A stretch of DNA of 64,000 nucleotides, taken from contig OU015523.1 in NCBI GenBank assembly GCA_907165065.1, forward strand, positions 20,983,834 through 21,047,833. The letters are read 5' to 3'. The position numbers and the translations under genes were made by a program. The DNA comes from Caprimulgus europaeus (lineage: Eukaryota; Chordata; Aves; Caprimulgiformes; Caprimulgidae). Every line of letters starts with the position of its first letter. Position 1 is the stretch's first letter. Below, piece after piece: positions 11,552 to 59,099 of the stretch. The notes under the pieces are model-generated. The model did no database searches and was not told the DNA's origin. It saw nothing but the letters and a program-made list of their open reading frames with translations.

Positions 11552-11620
<69 letters not shown>

Positions 11621-11710
11621 ATGCATGTATATATATATATATGTATGTATGCATGTATATATATATATATGTATGTATGTATGCATGTGTGTATATATAT
11701 ATATATATAT
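11552..11710. repeat. Compound (TA)n/(TG)n microsatellite, about 160 bp
   Basis: About 24 TA units, then about 9 TG units, then alternating ATGCATG, (TA)n and (GTAT)n blocks ending in (TA)n. The Tyr/Ile/Cys/Val-rich and His/Thr/Tyr/Ile-rich open frames across it on both strands are artefacts. Confidence 0.98.
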
Positions 11711-16559: not shown

Positions 16560-19500
16560 TTAATCAAGAGATGAAAGCAAAAAAGAGAGCTTCTGTGAAA
16601 GAGATCATGAGAGAGATAAAAAGAGTGAAAAAAGAGAGGGTGGGGAAGAGTGAAATAGAGAGAGGAAGAGGGTAAAAAAAGAGAGGAAAAGAAGACAGAC
16701 AGAAAAATATGTAAAGCAAAGAAGGGAGACAAAAAGCCATAAAAAGACAATAAAAAGAGATGGGGAGATAGAAGAGTGTAGAGGGAAAGGGAGAAAACAT
16801 AAGGTAGGCATGTGAGAATACTCAAGAAAGGGAAAGAGGGACAGTATAAAAAAGAGATCAAAAAAGAAAGATGGAATGCAAAGGCGCAAGAAAGGGCAGG
16901 TGTGTAAGTAAAAGCAAGTATGCAGAAAAAGAGCAAGTGCTTGTGAGAAGGTGAGGGCATGAGGAGTAGAAGGTGAACAAAAAATAATGAGTATGAGAAA
17001 GAGGATGTGTGCAAATAGTGGAGCACGTGAGAAAGAAAACAAGAGAAAGTGAGTCCACAAGGAAGAGCAAGCACACAGAAGAAAGGGTGGGTGAAGAAGA
17101 GAAAGGAAGAGATGAGATAGGAAGACAGAGAAAATGTGTGAGAGCAAGTGAGAGAAACAGTGGAAGAGTGAATGAGAGTGAGAGAGGGCAAGAACAAGTG
17201 TATGAGACTGAGATATCGAATTAGAGAGAGAGCTCACCTGAGGAAAAGTGAGCATACGGGCATGGGAAAGGGTATGAGTGCATGAGGAATCACATAAGTG
17301 TGTGAGATGGAGGGTAAGTGCATGGGAAATAGCAAGTGTGTGTGAGGAAGAGCCAGGGATTGAGAAAGAAAGTGAGGGCACCACAAAGAGGGAGGGCACA
17401 CAAAGGAGAAAGGGTGTGAGAAACAGAGGGCGTTTGAGAAAAGGGAATGCATAGAAACAGTAGGAAGAGTGCTAAAGAATGGGTGAAAAAAAAGAGTGCA
17501 TGAGAAAGGTTAAATGAGAAAGAAAGCCCACATGAGAAACTGTGAGTGTGAGGGCATGGGGAGAAGTAGGCACAGGAAAGGAAGGCACCAGGGTGGGATA
17601 AAGCACATAACCATGTGAGAGCATAGTTGCACGAGAAACAGTAAGCATGTGCAAGGAAGAATGAGGGTGTGAGAGATGAGGGCACAAAAGAAGGCCACAA
17701 GAAAGGGGGAGCACTCCAGAAAGGGAATGCACAAGAAATAAAGAGGGAGATAGCATGAGAGAGAGAGAGAGCATAGGGGCAAAGAGATGGAATGAGAAAG
17801 CAAGCACGAGAGTGTGAAAAGGATCAAGCACAAAATTGTAGGAAAGGGTGTGAGGGCTCAAGAAAGTGACAGTGTGAGAAAAATCAAGGGCATGAGAAAA
17901 GGAGAAGGCATATGAAAGTACACCTGCATGCAAGGAAGAGTGAACGTGTGAGAAAGTGCACATGAGAGAATGAGAAAATATATACGAGTGAAAGAGAGAG
18001 TAAGCACACATGAGAGGGAATCCTAACATAAAAGAGAGCGCTCCTGCAAGAAAGAGGGAGCATGAGGGCACAGGAAAGGGTGGGTGTAAGAACGGGCAGG
18101 GTTGGGAGCAAGAGAGCATGAGAGCAGAAGAAAGCAAAAATGCAGGAAAGAGCAAAAGCGCAAGAAAGGGAAGAGCAGGAGAAAGGGCAAGTGCTTGAGA
18201 AGGAAAATGTGCAAAAACAGTGCAAGCATGTATGAACAAGAAATTGCACATGTGAGAGAAAGACAAGAAAAAGAGTGCAAGAAAGAGGGAAGGAGAGAAT
18301 GTGAGAAAGAGTGTGCTGGGAAAAGATGGTATATGAAAGAAATAGCAAGTGTGAGGAATCAAGCATGGGGGCATGAGAAAAATGGATGCAATAAAGGGTG
18401 TAAGGTCACAAGAAAGGGCACAATGGTGTTAGAAAGCACTGCCACAAGAAAGGTTGTCATGGCCTGAGAAAAGGAGCAGGCACAACAAAGTAAGTGTGTG
18501 TGGTAAAGAGATGCCCATAAGAGAAAAATAGGGGAAACAGAGTGGAAGAGCAAGAGAGAGGGAGAGGAAGAAGGAAAGAGTGGGAGAGAACATGAGACAG
18601 TTTAGAAAGAGGGAGATTGTATGAATAGTGCACCGAGAGAGCATGTGAGAAAGAAATGGAGAGCAAAAGATTATGCAAGAAAGAGAAAGCGTGTGCAAGA
18701 AACTGAGCACGAGGTCATAAGAATGAGTGATGGTGAAGTCTCAAGAAATTGAGTAAGGGCATGAGAAAGGTATGAGGGTGCAACAAAGAAAGTGACGTCA
18801 CGAGAAGAGGAGCAAGTGGGTGAAAGAGCAGAACCATGTTTGAGAAAGAGCAGGCACAATAAGAGGTAAGCTTGAAGGCACAGGAAAGGGAGCTAATGTG
18901 AGAAAGAATAAGTGTGCAAGAAAATTTGAGTGTGTGGGAGAAATGGCAAGAAAGAGATAGCGTCTGAAAGAGCATGAATGAGGAAGAATTAGGGGAAAGA
19001 GGACAAAAGAGGGAGAGACAAAGAGTGGGGGGAGGGAGGGGAGGGTAAAGCTCAAAAAGGGATTGAGAGAGGGACTGCACCAGAAACCAAGAGAGATAGT
19101 GTGGGAGAAGGAGATAAAGCACACATGAGAAAATTAGTAAGAGCATGAGAAAGAACAAGGATAAGGTTGAGAGAAAGAGTGTGAGGTCACAAGAAAGGAG
19201 GTGTGGTAATGAAAATGGGCATTGTCAGAAAGGGAGTGAGGATATGAGAAAGAGAACAGCCTGAGAGAAAGAGAACAACCACAAGAAGGAGAATTATCAA
19301 CTGAGAAAAAGAACTAGTGCATGTGAGAGAAAGAGAACTAGATAGAGGGGGGGGAGACAGTGAGAGAGATAAAGACTCCCCAAGCAAAGAAGCTCTTAAG
19401 AAAGATAGAGATAAAGCTTACATGAGAAAGAGTGGGCATGAGAAAGGATAGGTGTGAGGGCACAAAAAAAGAAAGAGCCAGCACACAAGAAAGGAGAGCA

Positions 19501-22006
19501 AGCATCCAAGAAGAGCAAGGTTGATAGAAAAGGGAAGGGCAAATTCCCACAAAAAAGAATAAGAACACAAGAAAGGGAATTAAAGAGTGAGCACATTAAA
19601 GAGTGACAGAGAAGTAGAGACAGAAGGGGAGATAAAAAGGAAGTAGATAATATGAGGTGAGAGATGGAAATTAAAAGATGATATAAGAATGAGAGAGCAG
19701 GGGGATAAGGGAGAGGAAGAAGGCATAAAGGAGAGAAAGAGGGGAGAGAGTGAGGCGGACAATGAGGAAGCGTGAACGAGAGATGTAGAGATTGTGAGGG
19801 AGACAGTGCACTAATAGGAGAGGGTGTTTAGGAAAGAGAGGTGTGAGAAAAAGCAAGCACAAAGTCATAAGGAAGAAAGAAAAAGGTTGCAAGAAAGGGT
19901 ACAAGGTCATGAGAAAGAAGGTAATATGGGAATGAGAGCATGGCCATGAGAAAGGGTACAAGGGCATGAAAAGGGGTACATTAGTGCAAGAAAAAGCAAG
20001 AGAATAAGAGTGAGTGAGCAAGGAAAAGCAGGATCCTGTGTGACAAAGCAAGTGCACATGAGAAAGTGCGTGTAAGTATGTGTGAGAGCAAGTGATTCAG
20101 AGGGACAAAGCAAGAAACAGAGAGACAGAGACAAAAGACACCGGAGGATAGGGGGTAGGAGACAAGGATATAGAAAATGAAAGAAAATGACAGAGGGGAA
20201 GAGAAAGGAGTGAGAAGTAGAAAGAGAACTTGAGAAAGAGGGAATGTGTGCACAAGAAACAGGGAGAGAGAGTGTGTGCATGAGTGACTGCAAGGGCATG
20301 AAAAAGATTGACTTGGAGGCTGCAAGAAAGGGCATGAAGGTGCAGGATAGGTTGTGAGGAAAAACATGATGTGAGAAAGAGAATGGCCACAAAGACTATA
20401 AACACCTGCAAGAAAAAGCAAGAGTGCACAAAGAAAGATAAAGAGGGAGAGGAGAAAGGGGAAGAGTGAGAAAGCATGCAATAAGGACAGGGGAGAGGGA
20501 GTAAGAAACAAGGAGAGTCTGGGAAATAAATGGCACAAAGGAGAAAGTTCGTGTGAGAGAGCTAGCATGACTGGATAAGAGAGAGTGAGCATGAGTTTGC
20601 AAGAAAGGACACAAAGGCTTGTATCAGAAATAGTGTGGCCAGCAGGACTAGTGAAACAATCATCCCCCCATACTCAGCACTGGTGAGGCTGCACCTCCAG
20701 TACTTCATTCAGTTTTGGACCGCTGACTACAAGAAAGACATGGAGGTGCTGGAGCATGTCTAAAGGAGGGCAATAAAGCTGGTGAAGGGTCTAGAGCACA
20801 AATCTTATGAGGAGTGGTTGAGGGAACTTGAGTTGTTTAATCTGGAGGAAAGGAGTCTGAGGGGAGACCTTCTCACTCTACAATTACCTAAAAGGAGGTT
20901 GTAGCAAGGTGGGTCTCAATCTCTCCCCCTAAGTAACAAGCAACAGGAGAAGAGGAAATGGCCTCAAGTTGCACCAGGGGAGGTTTAGATTGGATATTAG
21001 GACAAATTTATTCACCAAAAGGGTTATCAAGCATTGGAACAGGCTTCTCAGTGAAGTGGTTTTTAACTGGAGGTATTTAAACAGCGTAGATGTGGCGCTT
21101 AGGAACATGGTTTAGTGGTGGACTTGTCCTTGTTAAGTTTATGGTTGGACTCACTGATCTTGAGGGTCTTTTCCAATCTAAATTATTCTATGATACTATG
21201 ATTCTATGAAATAGTGAAGAGTCAAGAGAAAGGGCATGAGGACATGACAGCAAGCACAAGTGAGAAAAAGCAAGTATGCACAAGAAATAGTGCACATGAA
21301 GGGAAAAGGGAGAAGAAAGAGGACACAGCAGGAGACAAAAGATAAAATGGGGGGAGAAATGGAGAGAGAGCCCAATAGACTGAGCATGAGGGTGGGGGAA
21401 ACGGTGGAAATGAGAAAGCAGGGGCAAGGTTGCAATGTGTGTGGATATGTGAGAAAATGCAAGTGCGTAAAAAAGAGTGGGAGTGCACAAGAAAGCATGA
21501 ATGTTTAGAAGAAAGGGAGCACAGGAGAAAGAGAGGGTGTGAGCAAGAAACAGAGAGTGAGAGTACATGTGAGAGAGAGGTGGAAAGAGAAAGAGAGGGG
21601 CATGGTGCCAGGAATATTGTGTACCTGAGAAAGCAACCAAAAGGCTGTGAAAAAGACTGAATGTGAGGTTGCAAGAAGAGATGTGAGGTTGTTAGGTCAC
21701 AAGGTTGCATTGAAGGACATGAGGCTGCAAGAAAAGCCACAATGTTGTTAGAATAGAAAGAGCATGAGGCTGCAACAAAGGGTGTGAAGATATGAGAAAA
21801 GGAGCAGGCACAAGAGGGAGTGCATAAGAGAGAGAGGAAGAGATAGGGAAAGAGAGATAAAGACTGAGTGAGAAAGCAAGCACTCAAGAAAGAGAAAAAG
21901 CTTATGAATAAAGAGTGCTGGAAAGAGACTGCACGGGGAGAGAGGTGGCATGAGAAGTTGCATGCAAGGGCATGGCAAAGCACCAGAGCAAGGTCACAAG
22001 AAAGGA
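16560..22006. repeat. 5.4-kb strand-asymmetric purine-rich tandem array (GAGAAAG-type)
   Basis: The plus strand is overwhelmingly A and G. It is built from short degenerate units around ATGAGAAAGGGCA, AAGAAAGGG and GAGAGAGAG, separated by short GCATG, GTGTG, GCACAAG or GGTCACAAG spacers. Local spacing between cores is irregular, mostly about 14 to 20 bases and multiples. Long runs of Leu, Ser, Phe, His and Pro codons appear on the minus strand (open frames up to 300 codons at 17472-18374) because a pyrimidine-rich strand rarely contains stop codons. These are not genes. The array edges are sharp: ordinary AT-rich sequence resumes within tens of bases on each side. A CR1 element interrupts it at 20612-21209. 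It lies inside the 10-kb intron between the two supported exons. Confidence 0.9.
20612..21209 (+). mobile_element. CR1 LINE, 5'-truncated 3' fragment inserted in the purine array
   Basis: It begins GGCTTGTATCAGAAATAGTG and continues through the conserved CR1 3' ORF2 remnant and 3' UTR (GAGGAGTGGTTGAGGGAACT, GGGTCTTTTCCAATCTAAAT) to the terminal ATGATTCTATGA. Internal differences from the CR1 sequence as I know it (a TAA in the coding remnant, small indels) show that it is an old dead copy. Purine-array sequence continues on both sides, so it inserted into a pre-existing array. Confidence 0.95.
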
Positions 22007-25000
22007 CCCGCAAAAAAATTACATTAACTAAGGGACTTAATGATTCAATAATAGCTTTTATTTCACAGATTTGTAGTATGTTGTCAATTTTTTTTAGGCA
22101 GGGTATAAAAATAGATTGTTTGACAACATAATTTCTTGCAATTCATACAGAAGCAGTGCTTAATTTGGGCACCTCTCTGTATATTGTCTGTAATACAAAC
22201 TATTTTGTTCTGATTAAATTGTCTGACATGCTAAGCACCATAAGATGGAAAAGTTACTGCAAATTCAAGGTCTAAAATTGACCTTTTAACATGATATGTC
22301 TACAAAAGAAGGGACATTTATGCTTCTGATCATTTTGTAAATGGAAAAGGGACACAAGGTTTTGAAGGTAAATCTAATTTGTCTGCAAATCCCTTGAGAC
22401 CAAGGCAATAAGTCTGATGCAAAATTAATCTCAGTTGAGAAACCAAATCATTCTGAAGTCAACTCAGGACACAAAGTACTGTTGGGGAAACACCCCATGC
22501 TGAAGCACTCATACCAGGAGATCAAATGGCTCCCAGGTGGCAAAAGATTGGAATCATTTCAGTCTGCCTCCCTGGGAAAGGCAGAGCCCAGTCTAGCCTC
22601 CAAAGCCCTTTCAATCATTTTGTGACTCTCGAGTTTCTTCAGCCTCCACATCACCACTTGCTAGACTGGCCCATAACACTGTGTCTCTCATGGTAAATAT
22701 ATGCCCCAGTTTTATGGACAGGTATGAAATCAAACACACAGAGTCAAATCCGACAGCATAAACTGATGTTCCTTCAACTACTGCAGTGTTTCCACCACTT
22801 TGGATCAGCCAGAAGTCTGGTTCTACTCTGTTTTTAAATAGAATATTCTTGTCATTCTCTCAGGTTGTAGCTTACTTCAACCACTACACTTTGTAGGGTA
22901 GAAAACTATCGTTTTAGCTATAAAATAAAGTATTTTAAAAATATATGTATATGTACACACACACGTACACACACTCATTGCAGTCTGAAGTCTTGTCAGT
23001 CACTCTGTGTGAGGAAAACACTTCAATGAGAACAGTGGTTTTTTGGAGAGCTCTTTTTGTTTTGTCTGCTGATAGTCTAAACTTCTCTTTCATGGTTTCA
23101 GGTGTAGCAGTTACTCCAGATGTTCATTTGATGTAAATCAGCAGTGATTTCTATTAATCTGTGGTTATTTGCATCTACTAAGGAACTGTCTCCTCTAGTG
23201 CTTTTAAAAGATGTCTTTAAAGCCTAATTATTTTGTTGCTGTGCATTATTTCTGACCTCCTTCTCCTGAAGAGAAAAAGAGCCTCGTATTGACATTTCAA
23301 ACACTTCGTTGCCAGCCTTTTCACAGTCACAGGCTGACAGAGTAAAAGTAACTAGTGTACATACTTGGATCACCAGCTCATTTCTAAGCTAGACAATCTG
23401 ATTACAAAAATCAACTGCACTGTGTCACATGCAAAGGGAGGACTGGGCAGGGCTTTAGGTTTTACGAAACACATTAGTGACCTATGAATTATCTTGATAG
23501 CTTGTGAGATGTTTTTCCAGGCACTTGAAAGATTACCAGAGTGGACAGAATGGCTCCCATGGAAAGCTTATAAAGAATGGAGGTTATCTTCTTAACAGCA
23601 ATCTTTAAACAGTACTAATTATTTCATTACAGAAACTATCATGGCACTAGCTTTCACTTGTCTGAACCATCCATTATTACTGCAATCATCCCTTTCACAG
23701 AAACTCCACTTGCTGCACACCTGGTTTAATAGAGAAACTGCAACTTGACCTGCTCTCACCCACACAATCTATCCTGCATTTTGTCTAAAGGCTGATTTCT
23801 CAAATGACACAATGCTCAACACCTTTTTAAAAGGTGAACTACATAGAAAGCAAGAAGCTGTCCCAATGGAACAATAAAATATTGATACAACAGTTCTGTC
23901 CCAAAGAACTGCAGAAATTATTATTTTCAAGCTGTTACAGGTTGTATCACAAAGCCATTGTTAACTTTGAACAAATACACAGGGATTCACATTAAACTGT
24001 GATCAAAAGTGTCATTGAATTATCATAAAATTATTTTTTATGAGTGACTCTTGTCACAGAATCCTAAAATACCACTGGATTTTACTTCAAGTACTCCAAA
24101 ACCACTTTTAATCTTTATGATCTGGAGAACACCAGTACTCTGCAATAAGACAGCATTAGCAATCAGGAACAACAGTTTACACAAAGCAGCTCCCCTGTTT
24201 GAATTTGTGTCAGTGCAGTTTGAATATTGATTCATATTGGTCTTTCTAAATATATGGGGAAGATATACTAAACATCTGGGCAAAAGATGAAAAATGGGCA
24301 AACAGATCTATTGTGCTGTGTAAATACAGCAAATAAACTCATCTAATTACTACTACTAATACTGAGCATTGGTATTGGCAGACCGTTAAACTCTGAAAAC
24401 AGGAACAGTTTCTGTGGATTTCTATTCTGATTTACCTATTCATTCTGGCCTCTTGTCTTGGAGCCAGGAAAGGGGCAGGGGAGGAAGAAAAAGTGAAAAA
24501 AAACCCAAACCTAATAGAGTCTTAATCAACTCTTCTGTCTGTGAGTAAATATTGCCATATGACTGGGTTAGCCCTGTTGACTATGTATTTGTGCTTGACT
24601 AATGCTTGAAAAGTTCTAGCAGTTCTCCTAAACTACTTAAAAAGGAAAACAGATACTACTATCTCAAAAAAATAAAAACCCAACAAAAAAGCTTAAAATA
24701 AATTGTAGCATACATATATTTGTAATTTTAACATACATGTGAGATGTTTTACTGTGTTGGGGTCAAATGCCTCATGCTTAAAACTACTTGTTTTTGTAAT
24801 AATCACAGATAGTGCACAATACATTTATTATATTTTTTTGCTTAATCTTATTTTTACTGAATCGTATTTTGCTATGTATAACTTCTCATACATAAACTTT
24901 CATCTCTGCTACAGAGACACACTGTCATTATACAATCCTTGCACAGTTTGGAATATAACATCTTGATTTTTTTCCCATCTACACACACTCACCAATTCAC

Positions 25001-34236: not shown

Positions 34237-35100
34237 CACTCCTATGACAGGATATGTTGTATTATCCAGAGGGACCTTGGCAGGCTTGAGAGGTGGGCCT
34301 GTGCAAACCTCATTAAATCCAACAAAGCCAAATGCAAGGTCCTGCACCAGGGTCGGGGCCATCCCAAACATAAATACAGACTGGGAGATGAGTGGATTGA
34401 GACCAGCTCTGAAGAGAAGGACTTGGGAGTGGTGGTGGACGAGAAGCTCGACACGAGCTGGCAATGTGTGCTTGCAGCCCAAAGACCAACTGTATCCTGG
34501 GCTGCATCAAGAGAAGCGTGGCCAGCAGGTGGAGGGGGGTGATTTCTTCCCTCTTACTCTGCTCCTGAAAGGCCCCACCTTGAGTACTGTGTCCAGTTCT
34601 GGAGCCGACAACACAAGAAAGACATGCACCTGTTAGAATGAGTCCAGAGGAGGCCACGAGGATGATCCGAGCACTGGAGCACCTCTCCTATGAGGACAGG
34701 CTGAGAGAGTTGGGGCTGTTCAGCCTGGAAAAGAGAAGGCTCTGGGGAGATCTTATAGCGGCCTTCTGGTACCTGAAGGGGACCTAGAAGAAAGCTGGGG
34801 AGAGACTTTTTACAAGGGCAGGTAGTGATAGAACAAAGAGAAGTGGCTTTAAGCTGAAAGAGGGTAGGTTTAGATGAGATATTAGGAAGAAATTCTTTAC
34901 CATGAGGGTGGTCAGGCACTGGAACAGGTTGCCCAAGGTAGTTGTGCACGCCTCCTCCCTGGAAGTTTTCAAAGCCAGGTTGGATGAGGCTTTGAGCAAC
35001 CTGGTCTAGTGAAAGGTGTCCCTGTTGATGGCAGAAGGAGTTGGAACTAGACGATCTTTAAGGTCCCTTCCAACCCTAACCATTCTATGCTTCTATGATG
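34237..35100 (+). mobile_element. CR1 LINE, 5'-truncated (about 860 bp)
   Basis: Recognised from the run of CR1 landmarks: an AGAGGTGGGCC region, CTGCACCAGGGTCGGGG, GAGAAGGACTTGGGAGTGG, the GGAGCACCTCTCCTATGAGG block, the TTTAGATGAGATATTAGGAA block, GGAACAGGTTGCCC, and a 3' end of TTCCAACCCTAACCATTCTA followed by TGCTTCTATGATG. It holds the C-terminal part of ORF2, broken by stops and frameshifts. It is very similar to the elements at 35953-36461 (opposite strand) and 49739-50025, so these belong to the same or closely related subfamilies. Confidence 0.96.
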
Positions 35101-35951: not shown

Positions 35952-35952
35952 C

Positions 35953-36461
35953 ATGGAATCATAGAACGGTTAGGGTTGGAAAGGACCTTAAAGCTCATCT
36001 AGTTCCAACCCCCTGCCATCAGCAGGGACACCTTTGACTAGACCAGGTTGCTCAAAGCCTCATCCAATCTGGCTTTGAACACTTCCAGGGAGGGAGCAGC
36101 CACAGCTTCTCTGGGCAACCTGTGCCAGTGTCTCACCACCCTCACAGTGAAGAATTTCTTCCTAATATCTAATCTAAACCTACCCTCTTTCAGCTTAAAG
36201 CCATTTCCCCCTGTCCTGTCATTAACTGCCCTTATGAAAAGTCCCTCCCAGCTTTCTTCTAGGTCCCCTTCAGGTACTGGAAGGCCGCTATAAGATCTCC
36301 CCAGAGCCTTCTCTTTTCCAGGCTGAACACCCCCAACCCTCTCAGCCTGTCCTCATAGGAGAGGTGCTCCAGTCCTTGGATCATCCTCAAGGCCTCCCCT
36401 GGACTTGTTCTAACAGGTCCATGTCTTTCTTGTGTTGGGGGCTCCAGAACTGGATGCAGTA
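35953..36461 (-). mobile_element. CR1 LINE, 5'-truncated, inverted relative to its neighbour
   Basis: The plus strand shows the reverse complement of a CR1 3' end: GGAATCATAGAACGGTTAGG, then GGACCTTAAAGCTCATCTAG, then GCAGGGACACC, GACCAGGTTGCTCAAAGCC, CAGGCTGAAC and AGGAGAGGTGCTCCAG, fading out after GGATGCAGTA. It is about 510 bp and inactive. It lies 850 bp from the plus-strand CR1 at 34237-35100, of which it is an inverted partial copy. Confidence 0.97.
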
Positions 36462-38794
36462 TATATGCTGGATTCCATAAATTGGTTTAAAATAATGTGT
36501 AGAAAGCCCCGCAAATATAGTTCTGCTGCTCTCTTTCTTATTAAAGTCCATGTCATATTAATGGGTTTATTTGCACACTGAATAAGAACTCTGGGGTGTT
36601 ACCTGTTTTACAGAAAATCACAGTAAACTTGCCACTTGGGTATTCTAGCTTTAGATTTGTAGAAACTCAGAAATAACTGAAAAACTTATGCAGTCATAAA
36701 GCTCTGCTAAATCTCAGTGCACAGCTTGAACAGAAGTGTCTAGGAAAAAATACCAAAGCATACAAGTGAAACCAAACATGAGTGGGGTATAATTACAAGG
36801 GATAACAAGACTTGGGTTGTAATCTCTGGCATGAATTGGCCTGATCCAAAGTCTGCTAAATGTTAATAAGGGTATTCCTTTTGATTTTAACAGATTCTGA
36901 ACTTAATCCTAAAACATTTTGGTTTTGTGATGTGATGCATGGTGTATGAACACAAACCTTCTATAACATGAAGTATCACAAATAGTGTCTCATTATTCTT
37001 TATTTGTAATGCAGCAAAAGTAGCCATTTTAGAAATAAAGACTTGAGAAAATAAGTTTTTCAGGAGTGCATTTCTTGGGTCCATGCACTTAAGTTTTGGC
37101 TTAGATGTACCATGATCAGTATTTCCAGCTGAAGCAATTAATTTTCTCTGTTTGGCATGTGAATAAAACTCTTGCAATGCAACTTTGACTTTCATTTTTG
37201 TTGGAGCCTGTTATTGCTAATGAAAAAAAAAAAAAAGTACTTCCTAGCTTTTCTAATGTATCAGCTATATAAATTGTTAACACTTAAGAACTCCCCAGGC
37301 ATTAAGGAATGACACAGTTTTCTGTGTTATCCCTGATAAAGTTTAGGATATGGAAAGCAGTTTAATCCTCTTTCTATACTCTCCCATCTGTGCTTTAGAG
37401 CTACCATAGTAAATTACTGCATACTGAAGCACTACTTCAGATGCAATTTCATATTTTCAAATCTGAGATAATTTTACTCCACAATGTATTTTTAATCTTT
37501 TTTAAAAAATTAAAATGATTAAGGAATCCAGGTCAGATAAAATTGTTGAATTTGAGGTGGATGGTAGTTTTCAGTGAAGTAAACCTTTCAGAAAGGTTGC
37601 TTGGTATACAGAGTTAAGCCAAACTAATCATGTTGTTTACAGAAAATCTGTAATGCAAAGTGTTAAGATTTAACTCAATTGTAATCTTTCCTTAATTATA
37701 AGACACTCTTTATGCAGGAATAGTTGCTGACAAATAAAAGAGTGCTTCAAGCCATAATTGTACCTTAAATATGCTGTTGCCTAAGCCTAATGTCTTTGGT
37801 TCTGCTTTCACATTGCAGAATGGATTTACTTGGTACAGCTTTGCCATTAACCTGTTCAGTCACGGTTAAGGCTCATTTCTTTCACTGTGAGGGAATCTTC
37901 AGTTTTGTGTTGGATTTCTCTACATTTTATCAGATGTGCATTTTGCTGCTGTCTAATCGTTACAGATAAAAGGGCTGATGTAGTATCTATTGGAGTAAAT
38001 TGACTGATTCAGTTCAAAGTCTGAGCATAAGCAGCTGCTCCAAGAGTAGAAGTGAATACAGAGAGAGAGACTGATTTAATAAACTTCTCTATCTTGCATT
38101 TTTCTGCATCCACATAAAAACCTACGTTCAATAACACCACAGAAATCCAGTCAGTTCAGTGTGTTACTGAGGTCACCATATGGTTGCAGAGCAGCTGGTT
38201 AATGTTAAACCTCAAAATTGAGATTATACTTACAGGAAGCAGCAGATACTTTGAAGAATCTGCAGCCACAGTGCAGCATCTCAGACAGACAGTCAAAATC
38301 ATCAAAACACTCTGACAAAGAAAGAGTTCCTCTGTAACTCGTTACTTTGAATTTCAAAAAAACATCTTACTATCTTATGTCCTGGGACTAACCTGAAGAC
38401 TATAGACCACCCCACCTGATGACCTAAACCCAGCTAAATTAATATCTGTCACCTTACAACCAGACTACGGCAACCCAACACTTTCTCTGAGACTTAATGA
38501 TTGCTTCTAAGACTACTGAATTGTCAAACCTGAGTTAAATCTCCCAAATTCAGGGTGGAGAAAGCGGGTCTGTGGATTTTTCTGTGGGGGCAAGTAACCC
38601 AGCTCTGCAGAGGACAGCCTGCTCACATTGAAACAGAGCTCCTTCACATTGCATATGCCAGTAGGATACTCCTCCTATTCTTTTTATTTTCCTCCAGGTC
38701 TTTATTGCCACATGTGCACTACTGGGATTGCTAAGGAATAGGCTCCCATCTTCACTGCCTTACCCACATGTATTGTTCCTCTGGTGCTGTGCAG
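36462..38794. other. AT-rich non-coding DNA between two LINE copies
   Basis: No gene or repeat was recognised. A 102-codon minus-strand open frame at 36887-37195 is AT-rich and has no domain. Confidence 0.55.
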
Positions 38795-39976
38795 GGTGGG
38801 CGGTGAGCAAGGAGCACCTCAGAAGGCAAACGGGGATTTTGTGAATGTTGTCTACCTTGATTTCAGCAAGGCTTTTTATACTGCCCCCCACAACGTCCTT
38901 GTAGTAAAGCCTAGAAGGTATAGCACAGATGAATGGATGGTGAGGTGGATTGAGAACTGGCTGACTGGCAGAGCCCAGAAGGTTGTGATCAGTGGTGCAG
39001 GATCTAGTTGGAAGTCTGTAACTAGCGGTGCTCCCCAGGGGTCATTACTGGGTCCGGTCTTGTTTAGCATCTTCATCAATGACCTGGATGTCATTGCATA
39101 GCATCCACCCTCAGCAATTTTGCTGATGATACAAAGTTGGGAGGAGTGGCTGACACACAAGAAGGCTGTGCTGCCATTCAACGAGACCTGGACAGAAAGC
39201 AATCTGATGAGGTTCAACAAGATCAAGTTCAGTCCTTCACCTGGGGAGGAATAACCGCATGCACCAGTACAGGTTAGGGGCTGACCTGCTGGAGAGGAGC
39301 TCTGTGGAAAAGGACCTGGGTGTGCTGGTGGACAGCAGGCTGGCCATGAGCCAGCAGTGTGCCCTTGGGGCCAGGAAGGCCAACAGTATCCTGGGGTGCA
39401 TTAAAAAGAGCGCTGCCAGCAGGTCAAGGGAGGTTTTCCTCCCCCTCTACCCTGCCCTGTTGAGGCCACATCTGGAATCCTGTGTCCAGTTCTGGGCTCC
39501 TCAGTTCAAAAGGGACGGGAATCTTCTGGAGAGAGTCCAGCGGAGGGCTGCAAAGATGATGAGGGGCCTGGAGCATCTGCCTTATGAGGAGAGGCTGAGA
39601 GAGCTGGGACTCTTCAGCCTGGAGAAGAGAAGACCAAGAGAGGATCTTATTCATGTCTATAAATACCTGAAGTGTGGGGGCCAAATGGATGGGCCGAGCT
39701 CTTTTCAGTGGTGCCCAGTGATAGGACAAGGGGCAATGGTCAAAAACTGGAACACCAGAAGTTCCAAACGAGCTTAACAAAAACTTCTTTACAGTGAGGA
39801 TGATGGAGCACTGGGACAGGCTGCCCAGAGAGGTTGTGGAGTCTCCATCTCTGGAAATGTTAAAAACCCACCTGGACACTTTCCTGTGCAATCTGGTGTA
39901 GGGAACCTGCTTTGGCCGGGGACTTGGACTAGGTGATCTCCCAAGATCTCTTCCAATCCCTACGATTCTGTGATTT
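38795..39976 (+). mobile_element. CR1-like LINE relic with reverse-transcriptase remnants
   Basis: The longest LINE fragment here. One open stretch (to 39101) encodes part of a non-LTR reverse transcriptase, with [34 protein letters not shown] and FINDLD. A frame shift follows at about 39100, after which SNFADDTK (about 39114-39137, holding the FADD form of the catalytic motif) reads in another frame. A second open stretch (39259-39777) gives the C-terminal part: [32 protein letters not shown] and [16 protein letters not shown]. The sequence linking them around 39185-39240 is shorter than in intact elements, so an internal deletion is likely. The 3' end is CTTCCAATCCCTACGATTCTGTGAT, a different terminus from the other CR1 copies here. 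It is not functional: the N-terminal endonuclease is absent and frames are broken. Confidence 0.95.
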
Positions 39977-50025: not shown

Positions 50026-52002
50026 GGCCATATTCTCTTTGTCTTTCACTCGCACTGAGATCTGGGGCTACAAAGAAATTTTTAATTTACCAAAACTTCA
50101 TCCACTATTATGTACTGATAATCAATACACAATAACAGCCATAAGGAGGAAAGTACACAACACTTCACTCATCCCTAAAATTTGTTCTACTATACCTTAG
50201 AAAGCAAAAATTATACCGAAAATACAAATAGACTATAATAGGGAGACAGAGATTAACTCCACAAATACAAACATATTGGGTCAGAGTTCTGCAAATTTGA
50301 AGTCTGATGAGATGATCACATCTGAACTTTGACACTCATGTTAAAGCAGTCTGTGAGGCTACCTTGTTGAGAAATGCAAACTAGTTGAGAACTGGGAAAT
50401 AAACAGCTCCTGTTGACAAGCTGCTAGAGACACCAGCCACTGAAAAGAACAGGAGATGGCTGCACAAGGAACAGGGGGTATCCAAATTCAATTATTAGTC
50501 AGAAAGGCTCAAGTGAGAAGCTGCACAAGAAATATAGATATAGAACCCCCTTTTAGTTGTGGTTTTACTGGGCCAGACAGAAAGAGCACTTTCATTTAAT
50601 GATGTAGTTACAAACTAGGTGAAGTGGAATATATTCCCAGAAACATTTCAAAGCAAGGATAGAGAGGATGCTGCACACATATGCAATACTTAAATACCTT
50701 TTCAGAGATATACAAGTGTCATTAGCTTTATAGGACAGCAGAAAAATGTTCATGTAAGTGAGGTCTTGATTGTTGCATTGCCACACATCAACAACAGTTT
50801 GCATAATCCAATATTCACAGTAAAATCTTTGGCCACACTCCAGAGAAAACCACATTTCCATCCTCATCTCTTGGGACACCTCTTCTGAAAGACTCCTGAT
50901 TTTTCAGTTCAGCTCTTATCACTTTCTGTTAGTGTAAAAAGGAGAGTCAGCTCAACATAGCTGATCATTCTTCTGTTTGAACACTCAGATCAGGTAGTTG
51001 CAACCTATCCTTTAGCCCCTCTTTTGTCAAACTCTTCTTTTAAATCCTTGCTTGTCACAGTGGTGAAAAAGATTGAATCAACACAAGGTGGTCTTAAACA
51101 TCTTTGAGCCTTAGGAAAAGAAATAACTGAATCAGGATCTGAAACTATGAATGGTGCTTAGTGGGTTAATCTGATTTAATCCAGGAAAATCAGACTCAAG
51201 CCATGTTCATTAAGAGGACTTTAATTTTGTTTTGTGTTTTTAAACAACCTAGGAAATATCTGAACTCCCTGCCAATGATTTCTCTGTACTATTTAAAAAC
51301 ATTTTTGAAGGTGCTGATTACAGTGCTGAATGTCAATAGGATCCTATCTACTATTAATGTTATTACTGTTGTTGTGGTACTTAAAAGCTGCAATTATGGA
51401 TCAAGGTCTGACTAAGCTATTTGCTACACAGATCCAGAGTAAAAGATATGGATCTACACAAGGAAAAATGTGAAAGAGTGCTGGTCAGCATGACACAGGG
51501 GAGTTGGATCACCAATGCCTTCATTGACAAAGAGAATTTTAAGGAACATTTGAAACATGATAAAAACATCAGGTTTTTAGATATTTATTGGGATTGCTGC
51601 CCAAGGATGAGTGCCATTATGAAAAAGATTTGATACGTTTGAGACTTTATATGAATGCAATTGATATATCCAGAAGAATGAACCCTGAGTAACAGTCCTG
51701 GGCTTTTCTGAGTGAAAAGGTTTTAGTAAGTTCAGTGGGAGAGGCCTGATAAAGAAATATGGGAAGGAAAGTGAGGATATAACTGGAAAAGTAGACTTTC
51801 AGAGTTCTAAACAGCACTTTAAATTACACAAAAATGAAAAAGAGAAAGAAAATGGAGAAGGTACTTGTAAAGGCACATAAAGCTAAGGGTGAATATGCAA
51901 TTTTTATTGATAGGAAAGACTGAAGTATGATTGTACTGTGAAAAGAAAAACTTGAGCAGAGCAAGGGAACAGATAAAGTAAAGGAGGGAAAATATACAGA
52001 TA

Positions 52003-52138
52003 CAAGGCAGATTGATGGACAAAATAGGATTGTATCGAGGCAACTGGAGGTGACTAGTGAAGGAGAATAACAAGGCAGATTGATGGACAAAATAGGATGG
52101 TATTGAAGCAACTGGAGGTGATTAGTGAAGGAGAACAA
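52003..52138. repeat. 68-bp perfect-period tandem duplication (two copies)
   Basis: CAAGGCAGATTGATGGACAA starts at 52003 and again at 52071. Both units continue through CAACTGGAGGTGA and TAGTGAAGGAGAA with only a handful of substitutions. The minus-strand open frames here repeat the same peptide (DTILFCPSICL, YHPILSINLP), as expected from the duplication. Confidence 0.95.
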
Positions 52139-55100
52139 CTCAGAAACTTACACCTGAATCAAGGAAGATGACACTTGCAGAATCATTACAAAGACTGTAA
52201 AGAAATCTGAGATGGGGCAAGGAGGTCAAATGATAATTTCATGGAAGAAAGGCATATACAGTTTTCACTAGAATTAATTTCTATGGACATGTACAAAAGA
52301 ATGAAAAGTAGGGGTGTAGAATGTTTCAAAAGTGAGAGCATTGCGGGTAAAATGTGGCTGAGGTTGTAGGTACACAGTTCAGCTGAGCTGGAAAAAAAAG
52401 AACTGTTTAGCCAGGAAGACTTTAGAATGGAAACAGAAGAAAAATATTTTGTAGTAGAAGGAGACAGGAATGGAGAAGCATCTTTCATTGAAACACCGCA
52501 GTGTATATGCACAGCTGCAAGAAGCTGAATGCTGAAAGTGATTCCAAGTTGCAGCATAGTGGGGCATACCACACAATTAGAGAATGGTAAAAGAGAATGC
52601 AAAGGAAATGACACATCAATGTATAAGTTAAAATAAAACATTCAACAAACCAGACCCACCCCCTGAAAAAAAAGGAAGAGAATACTCTTGAACTAGAAAA
52701 AAACCTGAGAAGAGATGAGAAGTTATCTGCTTTTGGCTGTAAGAAATTATGGGGGAAAAGATCAAGAAAGAAAGCCTGTGGGTGACACTGACCTCAGTAT
52801 CCTGAGAATAAATACTTTCTTATCATGTGTTCTCCAGGGTGGAGAAAATACACACTTTAGATCAATTATATTGATGCAGAACAAGAATGCATAATGCCTA
52901 AATGATCTGTGTGAGGTGACACAGAAATTAGAGCCAAATGTTGATCCCAAGACCCCCGAATCCCAGGTCAGACAGTTTGTGAGTTAATAGCTGTTGGCTG
53001 GTACAGACAGAAGTCTGACATCCTCCAGCCCTCTGCAGAACCTCTCTTGCTTTTCCCAATACATATCTATTAAAAGAAGGGCATCTTAATTAAAGTGCTA
53101 ACTCAAGTGAAACTGCAGATTATGTCTCAAAATATTTTGTCTTTCTCAGTTTTCTGTATTCACTATGAACTCTGAAATTGTAGGAACAAAGGTACACCCA
53201 GAAATGGCTCTTTTTTTTAATCTGATGACAGTTGGGAAGAAAGGAAAGCAAATTATGCCCCATCACACCATGGAGTTCAATGTTTCCCATACCACTGAGA
53301 AAAAAAAAAAGGTAAAAATTCACTCCTCATGAAGTATCTGCCTATGCCAACAGCTAATTTAGGCCCAATATACGTGCTATGCAGAAAGAATAAATTCTTA
53401 TGACATATCAAGTCTGGAATCCAGGGCAGCCTGGTAGTGATATTAAAGTGACACACTGTTTGCATACTGATTTTTGTGGTACTTATATTTGTTTTGAAAA
53501 AAACATATTTATGCAGTTTCACTGGGAGCATAGTTGTCATATACAAATAAATGAGAAAATCCAGTCACAGTGGCCAGTTTGGTAACAGCTCATTCTATCA
53601 TTGGGGAAAGATGCCTTCTGGGGTTTTGAATTCTGTTTGTAAAATTAAAGTTAGGGATACTATTCTTGTTCTCCTTCCAGATTTTTGAGATATAAAATAT
53701 CTCCTTGTCTATTTTTATACATTCTGTGTACCCTGTGGAGTCATTAAATGCATAATTTTGATCTACTGAGAGTTCACTGAACATTCAGAAACAACATAAT
53801 TTACTGGCTTCTTATTTTTTATTTGAAGAAGTTTGAAACTTATCTTCTTCTTAGCTAAGTACTTCTTTAGCCCCATGTGTTTGGTATTTTGGCAGTTGCT
53901 TTTAATAGATCTGATCTTGCACACACTTCATATACAGAACTCCTCCTCAAGAAATCTATAGCACAATAAACTAATAAAAGAAATTCACCCCAGTGTATCT
54001 CCTCAGTGGTTTTGCATGACTTTTACTTCACCTCTTGAACATCTTCAACACACTGTCAAACTGACTGTACTCTCTGCTTATCTGAGATTACTTTCCCTCC
54101 ACTGAAATGCAGTTCGTTACTTCCTTCAATGGAATTCTGAATCTGTTCTCTAATAGATTTCTAATCCTTAGCAGGCCTATACATTACGAAGCAACCACTG
54201 TGCTTGCCATATGGTTAACCTGATCTTCAGTCACCCTGCCACATAATTTTCATTAAGAACATGTGATTAGGAAAATACCACACCAACAAGAATGTGATTG
54301 CCTTTTCTGGCTTTCCCTTATTATTCTGAGGAGATTTTGGTTATCACACACCCTCCAGTCTCTATGGAGAACTGTGATTGTTTCCCATCAGAAATCTCTT
54401 GTTCTTACTTTTAAGTATATTCAGGAGTATCAGAAGACCTTGCTTCTCACACACTGGTCCCTGGACTTTTGTAGTTCGCTTGCTTGTAGAAGAATCAATA
54501 GACTTTTGATCTATTCCAATAAGAATGGCACTATAATACAAAGTGTGTTTTGATACTAGCACACTGTTAAAATAAAAAAGTTACGTGTTATTTTTATCCT
54601 ATTTCTGACTGCGCAAAACGTTCTGACCACTTGTGATCATTAATAATCTCGCACAGCTTTTCATAGCAATAGAGGACTTCATCAAAATGTCCTTGAAGAA
54701 TTCCTGTTCATGTAACTGTATATCACCTCACTATATCCTTATTTCACCAACGGGGTTTCTAACTCATGTCCTGTTCCAAGCTGTCCTGTCCCGAGATGAT
54801 ACTGAATATTTTTTAATAGTAACAACTGTTAACCTCCAAAATACAGGAATTTGTGTGTTAGAAGGAGAGAAAAAACCACATATATGTATCAAAGGACAGT
54901 GATGCTTAAGTATCTGTTATGATATGAACACATCAATGAAACAAAAAAAAAGTTCTGCTTAGTATTCAAAGAAAACAAAATACCTAAAAATACAAATTAA
55001 TAATGTTAAAAATGACCACATTTAGCAAGGGTTTTGAAATCTTTAGGTGAAAGATATTATGTAAAAGTTGAAGTTTTCATGTTTTGTGGGGGGTTTTTTC

Positions 55101-57257: not shown

Positions 57258-57497
57258 CACTTCTGGTTTGTTCTCTAAACTGCATCCTTCCCTTCTCATC
57301 CTGCCCTCAGCAGCTCCATTTCTCACTGAAAGCCCTCTCCAGCACTAGCTTTCAGCTTTGTCAGGTATGCTTTAGGCCACTGTCAGCTTTCCTCACACTC
57401 AGAGCTCATCTTTCTCTCTGCTCCCCAAGTCTTCCCTCCTCCTCCAACAAGTACCAGGAGTTGCTATTTTCACATATATTTTCTTCCTTTGCAAGCC
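57258..57497. repeat. Direct duplication, copy A (about 240 bp)
   Basis: It begins CACTTCTGGTTTGTTCTCTA and shares with copy B (58866-59099) the stretch through CTGCCCTCAGCAGCTCCATT, AAAGCCCTCTCCAGCACTAG and TCATCTTTCTCTCTGCTCCCC. About five mismatches are visible over the first 170 bases. Past that, copy A carries an extra pyrimidine-rich stretch (AGTCTTCCCTCCTCCTCC) before similarity resumes at AAGTACCA. Both copies are pyrimidine-rich. I do not recognise a known element. Confidence 0.9.
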
Positions 57498-58865: not shown

Positions 58866-59099
58866 CACTTCTCGTTTGTTCTCTAAACTGCATCCTTCCC
58901 TTCTCATCCTGCCCTCAGCAGCTCCATTTCTCACTGAAAGCCCTCTCCAGCACTAGCTTTCAGTTTTGCCAGGTATGCTTTAGGCCACTGTCAGCTTTTC
59001 TCACACTCAAAGCTCATCTTTCTCTCTGCTCCCCATCTCTACTCAATAAGTACCATGAGTTGTTATAAATTTTCACATGTATTTTCCTCCTTCACAAGC
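58866..59099. repeat. Direct duplication, copy B (about 234 bp)
   Basis: The partner of 57258-57497 in the same orientation, starting 1,608 bases later. Flanks on both sides differ from those of copy A. The 75-codon plus-strand open frame at 58841-59068 spans it and is also partly present in copy A (57160-57348), which explains two similar open frames (LHPSLLILPSAAPFLTE and LHPSLLILPSA-like readings) without implying a gene. Confidence 0.9.

Follow-up and report, generated by a model that had tools for sequence, protein, structure and literature searches.

This analysis concerns a purine-biased tract at 16566-22018 in a 64,000-nucleotide stretch of the Caprimulgus europaeus genome (contig OU015523.1), the whole of which is referred to below as the window. 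The tract is most probably the frozen, dead remnant (a "fossil") of a purine-biased minisatellite whose unit measured about 20 bp and which was probably once rich in CpG. A hidden two-base register, a factorial pattern of CA and TG steps, an old CR1 retrotransposon fragment within the array, and an in-order match of the first 1.4 kb to sequences outside the window were the main lines of evidence for this reading.

Composition and repeat unit of the tract

The limits of the tract were set by change-points in purine content, and the tract was interrupted by 20618-21208. In 500-bp windows, its purine content was 0.750-0.824 with a mean of 0.773, compared to a mean of 0.501 (sd 0.046, maximum 0.696, n = 1146) in the rest of the window. 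The strong strand asymmetry described in an earlier note on this DNA was thus confirmed, as an excess of G and A on one strand across 5 kb. The description of that strand as nearly all A and G was too strong. Purines made up 77.5% of the left part, 76.1% of the right part, and 75.0% of the whole interval (measured with bounds slightly different from the change-points), more than one fifth of the tract bases were pyrimidines, and the longest unbroken purine run was 29 nt. The GC content of the tract was 44%.

Tandem Repeats Finder returned only small local pieces and no (GA)n under default settings, for which the copies have diverged too far. Under looser settings, it gave many competing periods with units poorly alike and poor (GA)n stretches, in agreement with the earlier description of the units as short and degenerate. 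Autocorrelation of 16560-20640 showed peaks at even lags of 18-22 and again near 34-44. The power of the C/T indicator in the 19-21-bp band was 3.33-fold that of an order-4 and 3.08-fold that of an order-6 Markov null (z = 12.9 and 9.2, with 40 simulations for each order), and the strongest fine spectral peak was located at 19.02 bp. A unit near 20 bp was favored, mainly by the spectrum, and a subunit of 10-12 bp is possible.

A two-phase model revealed the two-base register, with a gain of 298 log units and 0.0116 phase flips per base. Eight order-4 simulations gave gains of 139-213 with 0.055-0.067 flips per base, and four stretches outside the array gave gains of 3.7-10.7. One register was 89% purine (G 0.545, A 0.343), and the other was composed of A 0.525, T 0.191, C 0.145, and G 0.138. 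A cyclic unit model fitted the left part better at even lengths of 16-24 than at the odd lengths 17, 19, and 21. This model was trained on the left part and scored on the held-out right part at 13 lengths. Lengths 10, 12, 20, 22, and 24 scored -904.4, -906.3, -901.2, -900.5, and -904.8, respectively, and the best Markov chain, of order 4, reached -910.0. The length-20 consensus was gG[C/T][A/G][T/C][G/A]AGAAAGAG[A/C]A[A/T]GAG.

The unit of about 20 bp, given by both the spectrum and the unit model, falls within the size range of minisatellite tandem units (about 10-60 bp). The earlier exclusion of both a plain (GA)n microsatellite and a classical satellite also held: CA/TG blocks and a unit close to 20 bp do not agree with the former, and units so poorly alike, whose best self-alignments do not surpass an order-5 null, do not agree with the latter. 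Self-alignments were more numerous than in the order-5 nulls (387 vs. 313-376 and 748 vs. 461-669). Looser scoring gave a top score of 319 vs. 115-213 in five order-4 nulls, an excess that we put down to common composition and period. A higher-order repeat, sought in the spectrum and the self-alignments, found at most borderline support.

CA/TG steps and the embedded CR1 fragment

The tetramer preceding AGAAA was counted at 126 sites, this anchor having been picked after the unit model was seen. CATG occurred 12 times, CACA 11, TGCA 11, and TGTG 9. The first pair of the tetramer was CA at 31 sites, TG at 31, TA at 5, and CG at 3, and the second pair was TG at 39, CA at 33, TA at 2, and CG at 1. 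CG and TA were depleted, with 16.6-18.0 of each expected from the base frequencies. Both pairs were CA or TG at 43 of the 126 sites. Outside the array, this held for 5 of 219 sites on one strand and 7 of 181 on the other, and none of 100 order-3 simulations gave more than 17 such sites. The state of one pair showed no association with that of the other (Fisher p 0.76), and the states were unclustered along the array (adjacent-same fractions of 0.475 and 0.493, expected 0.492 and 0.495). Across all 709 steps, CA and TG numbered 339 and 370 (binomial p 0.26).

This factorial pattern fits two methylated CpGs (CGCG), each randomly deaminated to TG or CA. The GCATG and GCACAAG motifs, regarded earlier as interleaved spacers, belong to the repeat unit and are probably decayed CpGs within it. 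Within the array, 737 of the 1097 pyrimidines started CA, TG, or CG steps, compared to 30.5% outside. After these steps were set aside, the remaining 3388 bases were 89.4% purine vs. 50.1% outside, and this purity was alike on the two sides of the CR1 fragment (89.4% left, 89.3% right). If every CA/TG step had once been CG, the array would have contained about 3 CpG per 20 bp at 58.5% GC, which is an upper bound because part of the CA/TG steps will have arisen in other ways.

The earlier note treated the interval as a single array, which was not borne out, since the CR1 3' fragment at 20618-21208 splits it. The fragment matched four further CR1 copies of the window in five hits at 65-71% identity and ends in a ATTCTATGA-type tail. 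It was assigned to CR1 by its 3'-end similarity together with this short tail repeat. The presence of CR1 is in keeping with a bird or other sauropsid. The fragment had the longest branch in a five-copy tree (0.37 vs. 0.30 for the fourth copy and 0.05-0.09 for three younger copies), although this branch includes divergence before insertion and gives only an upper bound on age. Its purine content was 0.532-0.554 vs. 0.542-0.562 in its four relatives. The embedded CR1 shows no purine excess, and therefore the asymmetry belongs to the repeat and not to the region. Strand-biased mutation of the whole region was ruled out on the same ground.

Other repeats were observed in the window. Two inverted CR1 pieces (34585-35097 and 35952-36461) share 89% identity over 513 bp and lie less than 1 kb apart, and the open frames at 38742-39101 and 39211-39777 resemble, by eye, pieces of CR1 reverse transcriptase. 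A direct repeat with 89% identity (57258-57496 and 58866-59099, about 1.6 kb apart) perhaps represents the ends of an inserted element. A 68-bp tandem duplication with 93% identity (52002-52139) was located inside a short purine-rich stretch (51825-52147), and an interrupted TA microsatellite was located at 11554-11710.

Relatives outside the window and timing of the proposed decay

Relatives of the tract were predicted proteins from contigs outside the window, and they were compared at the protein level. The minus-strand frame at 17475-18428, used as a query, matched P0001 (E 5e-13) and P0002 (E 1e-12) among 4344 candidates; 56% identity to this frame was found over 131 aa, including an exact 18-residue stretch. 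P0002 as a query matched at least P0001, itself, and P0003 among the 7994 candidates that were scored. All three proteins carry the source label 'lgn'. P0003 and P0002 showed 73% identity over 292 aa with 9 gap positions, and P0001 and P0002 showed 99.5% identity over 193 aa. The latter two may come from one species. No array relatives were found in viral contigs, phages, or prokaryote genomes.

Each protein was aligned to the array with frameshifts allowed, and scores were compared to 12 order-5 Markov simulations of the left part for each protein. P0002 scored 641 against 18009-16566 (simulation maximum 299), P0001 scored 486 against 18009-17087 (simulation maximum 198), and P0003 scored 434 against 17700-16632 (simulation maximum 235). 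In the same order, the scores were 277, 181, and 227 on 18101-20617 and 166, 155, and 152 on the right part. Against the window, P0002 needed 10 frameshifts, P0001 6, and P0003 8. The unit order is kept in the first 1.4 kb and the reading frame is not. Among many gaps of 1-12 bp, the alignments contained gaps of 18, 21, 33, 60, and 63 bp, a few of which come close to the length of one or three units, but the codon-based alignment favors multiples of three, so that evidence from gap lengths is weak. Simulated decay matched P0002 at 0.30-0.35 substitutions per site under assumed rates.

The simplest reading of these alignments is that the outside sequences would represent the same locus in other species. 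Paralogy, in which they would be a second copy of the tract within one genome, is possible. An assembly artefact, raised as a possibility by the earlier note, is unlikely because the outside contigs hold part of the tract in the same order.

Features of the tract (coordinates in the window; + is the purine-rich strand)
Coordinates	Strand	Feature	Evidence
16566..20617	+	Purine-biased degenerate minisatellite, part left of CR1	Change-points, purine content, 19-21-bp band power, cyclic unit model
21209..22018	+	Part of this minisatellite right of CR1	Purine content, register, purity outside CA/TG/CG steps, unit model trained on left part
20618..21208	+	Old CR1 retrotransposon 3' fragment within the array	Sequence and tail, five matches to four CR1 copies in the window, five-copy tree
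16566..18009	-	Segment aligning in order with P0002 (in parts with P0001 and P0003), frameshifts allowed; not a gene	Scores vs. Markov simulations

The states of individual steps were compared between the window and the outside sequences in a swap test. Stretches with local identity below 0.45 were dropped, leaving 293 of 430 residues for P0002 and 212 of 314 for P0003, and steps at which a swap is silent were not counted. The alignment scoring penalizes H/C swaps and so biases this test. For P0002, 43 of 74 CA/TG steps were the same, 3 were swapped, and 28 were other (control: 304, 22, and 160 of 486). For P0003, the corresponding values were 31, 8, and 23 of 62 (control: 213, 14, and 115 of 342). 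CG and TA steps gave 7 same, 0 swapped, and 17 other of 24 for P0002 and 6, 1, and 12 of 19 for P0003. The CA/TG states mostly agree with the outside sequences, which suggests that most CpG decay occurred before the split from those sequences. CA/TG swaps were rejected as proof of late CpG decay, since the expectation was unmet for P0002 and weak for P0003. Between P0002 and P0003, 5 pairs included arginine. Three of these, R-C or R-H, are in line with CpG decay, although the number is small.

If the non-CpG part began as all purine, 0.119 transversions per site have accumulated since its origin, corresponding to about 0.36 substitutions per site when transversions are assumed to be one third of substitutions. 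On these assumptions, the estimate is about double the 0.15-0.17 accumulated in each lineage after the split. Tentatively, and with more doubt than confidence, we suggest that the array descends from a methylated minisatellite dense in CpG (about 59% GC, with as many as about 3 CpG in each 20-bp unit), which formed at about twice the age of the split between the compared sequences, perhaps before living birds diversified, and that its decayed units now form a single-locus clock.

Alternative explanations and known systems

The history that we propose would begin with a unit, about 20 bp long, that consisted of two-base steps (chiefly AG, together with CG and AA) and read roughly GG-CGCG-AGAAAGAG-(C/A)(G/A)-AGAG, in which nearly all non-CpG bases were purine on one strand. 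This unit would have been amplified in tandem to about 5 kb by slippage or unequal exchange. Methylated CpGs would then have deaminated at random to TG or CA, giving the CATG, CACA, TGCA, and TGTG variants, while ordinary substitutions and small indels blurred the units until slippage or homogenization was no longer possible. CR1 would have inserted into the array, which would afterwards have been passed on as ordinary, apparently neutral DNA without function, with its unit order still traceable in the first 1.4 kb.

Several observations weigh against this history. The best period varied from 11.5 to 20.25 among eleven 600-bp pieces. The held-out score barely separated the 20-bp unit from 10 or 12 bp, and the other eight of the 13 lengths, 16 and 18 included, failed to beat the best Markov chain. 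The top local self-alignments lay within the order-5 nulls (56 vs. 43-60 and 32 vs. 27-35). A spectral bump in pyrimidine density near 240-390 bp (16566-22018) was borderline against the nulls, with C/T power at 380 bp of 8.2-fold and order-6 null maxima of up to 9.1 in 60 simulations. A third candidate CpG position, after AAAGAG, was weaker, with CA or TG in 11 of 36 cases, and units with intact CpGs turned up in no sequence examined. Swaps were not raised for P0002 (3 of 46 same-or-swapped steps; control 22 of 326) and showed no more than a modest increase for P0003 (8 of 39; control 14 of 227), and P0002 vs. P0003 gave 14 H-H and 11 C-C pairs with no H/C exchange. Relatives are known for 16566-18009 only, and the frame at the CR1 junction, used as a query, found no relative among 3169 candidates. 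Finally, the minus strand contained 17, 15, and 12 stops per frame, compared to a shuffled mean of 24.

The agreement of CA/TG states between the window and the outside sequences, in which the decay was not caught happening, also suits an old mixed-unit minisatellite in which the CATG, CACA, TGCA, and TGTG variants were present before amplification and no CpG ancestor is needed. This explanation is unlikely. Mixed amplification should leave like neighbors, whereas the variants were unclustered and the pairs were independent and near 1:1; furthermore, both CG and TA, through which CA and TG would interconvert, were depleted. A decayed plain (GA)n microsatellite, with pyrimidines arising as random point mutations, would account for the strong two-base register and for GA and AA as the commonest in-register steps (572 and 381 of 2009). 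It is highly improbable, given that the pyrimidines were periodic and mostly started CA, TG, or CG steps, and it was disfavored by both the unit model and the tetramer counts.

The tract could also be a working strand-asymmetric element that forms R-loops or slows polymerases when the purine strand is RNA, or that acts like a switch region. The one-strand excess of G and A and the relatives of the first 1.4 kb would fit such an element, which we nevertheless consider very improbable. A search limited to exact mirror repeats (purine or pyrimidine content of 90% or more, arms of 10 or longer, loop no longer than 8) found none in 16566-20617 or 21209-22018, and the pure purine mirror repeats of H-DNA were accordingly not seen in either array part. 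Only four G-quadruplex (G4)-type matches were present, all in the left part, and triplex or G4 behavior is therefore not indicated. The earlier suggestion of intramolecular triplexes is weak, with pyrimidines at more than one fifth of the bases in addition to the lack of exact mirror repeats. The relatives carry frameshifts and indels, and the exon scan gave no gene or transcription direction.

That scan, based on splice and codon signals, yielded no convincing exon in the 64-kb window; its five candidates were weak, and three overlapped CR1 copies. No tRNA and no Rfam family were found in the window, and the placement of the tract in an intron by the earlier note was not confirmed. We give almost no credence to a present or former protein gene on the minus strand. 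The minus-strand open frames of up to 318 aa, the reduced number of stops, and the relatives themselves, which are predicted proteins with few gaps between P0002 and P0003, would favor it, but all three minus frames were comparably open and each relative required frameshifts against the window. An immunoglobulin switch region would lie between J segments and constant-region exons; visual inspection of 88 open reading frames of at least 85 aa, with no profile search made, showed none resembling an immunoglobulin. The dead minisatellite is retained as the most probable reading.

Minisatellites are usually regarded as short-lived and fast-changing, and the tract is unusually legible for a decayed one. 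No such array was described by title among the literature matches listed, and those on the chicken W SspI polypurine family offered nothing for a comparison. The closest known systems include degenerate minisatellites and cryptically simple DNA, the latter reportedly described by Tautz, Trick and Dover in 1986. Like these, the tract is locally repetitive, scarcely resolved by Tandem Repeats Finder, and biased in composition with a periodic unit. It differs from them in its 5-kb strand asymmetry, two-base register, and factorial CpG-decay pattern, and in a unit order matched in outside sequences over the comparable part. A minisatellite that is frozen as a repeat, can be matched in order, and records random CpG decay per unit could serve as a test bed for the death of tandem arrays and for CpG-decay clocks.

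The "sequence stuttering" in introns of avian dot chromosomes is described as dynamic, GC-rich, and located in regions without interspersed repeats (PMC12954441). Like the tract, it involves imperfect tandem expansions, local in extent and tens of bases in scale, within non-coding bird DNA. The 44% GC of the tract and the CR1 inside it argue against membership, and the tract is seemingly frozen. Human PKD1 intron 21 contains a 2-2.5-kb polypyrimidine tract that is reported to have many G4 and H-DNA motifs (PMC11696556). Both tracts show a kilobase-scale purine/pyrimidine strand bias, but the one analyzed here has no exact mirror repeat and only four G4-type matches; long purine bias need not imply triplex DNA. 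In chicken DT40 cells, polypurine repeats such as (GAA)n impede replication through R-loops (PMC6356060). By analogy with that purine-rich strand, an orientation-dependent effect is conceivable for this tract, although the DT40 repeats were pure and uninterrupted, and more than one fifth of the bases here are pyrimidines.

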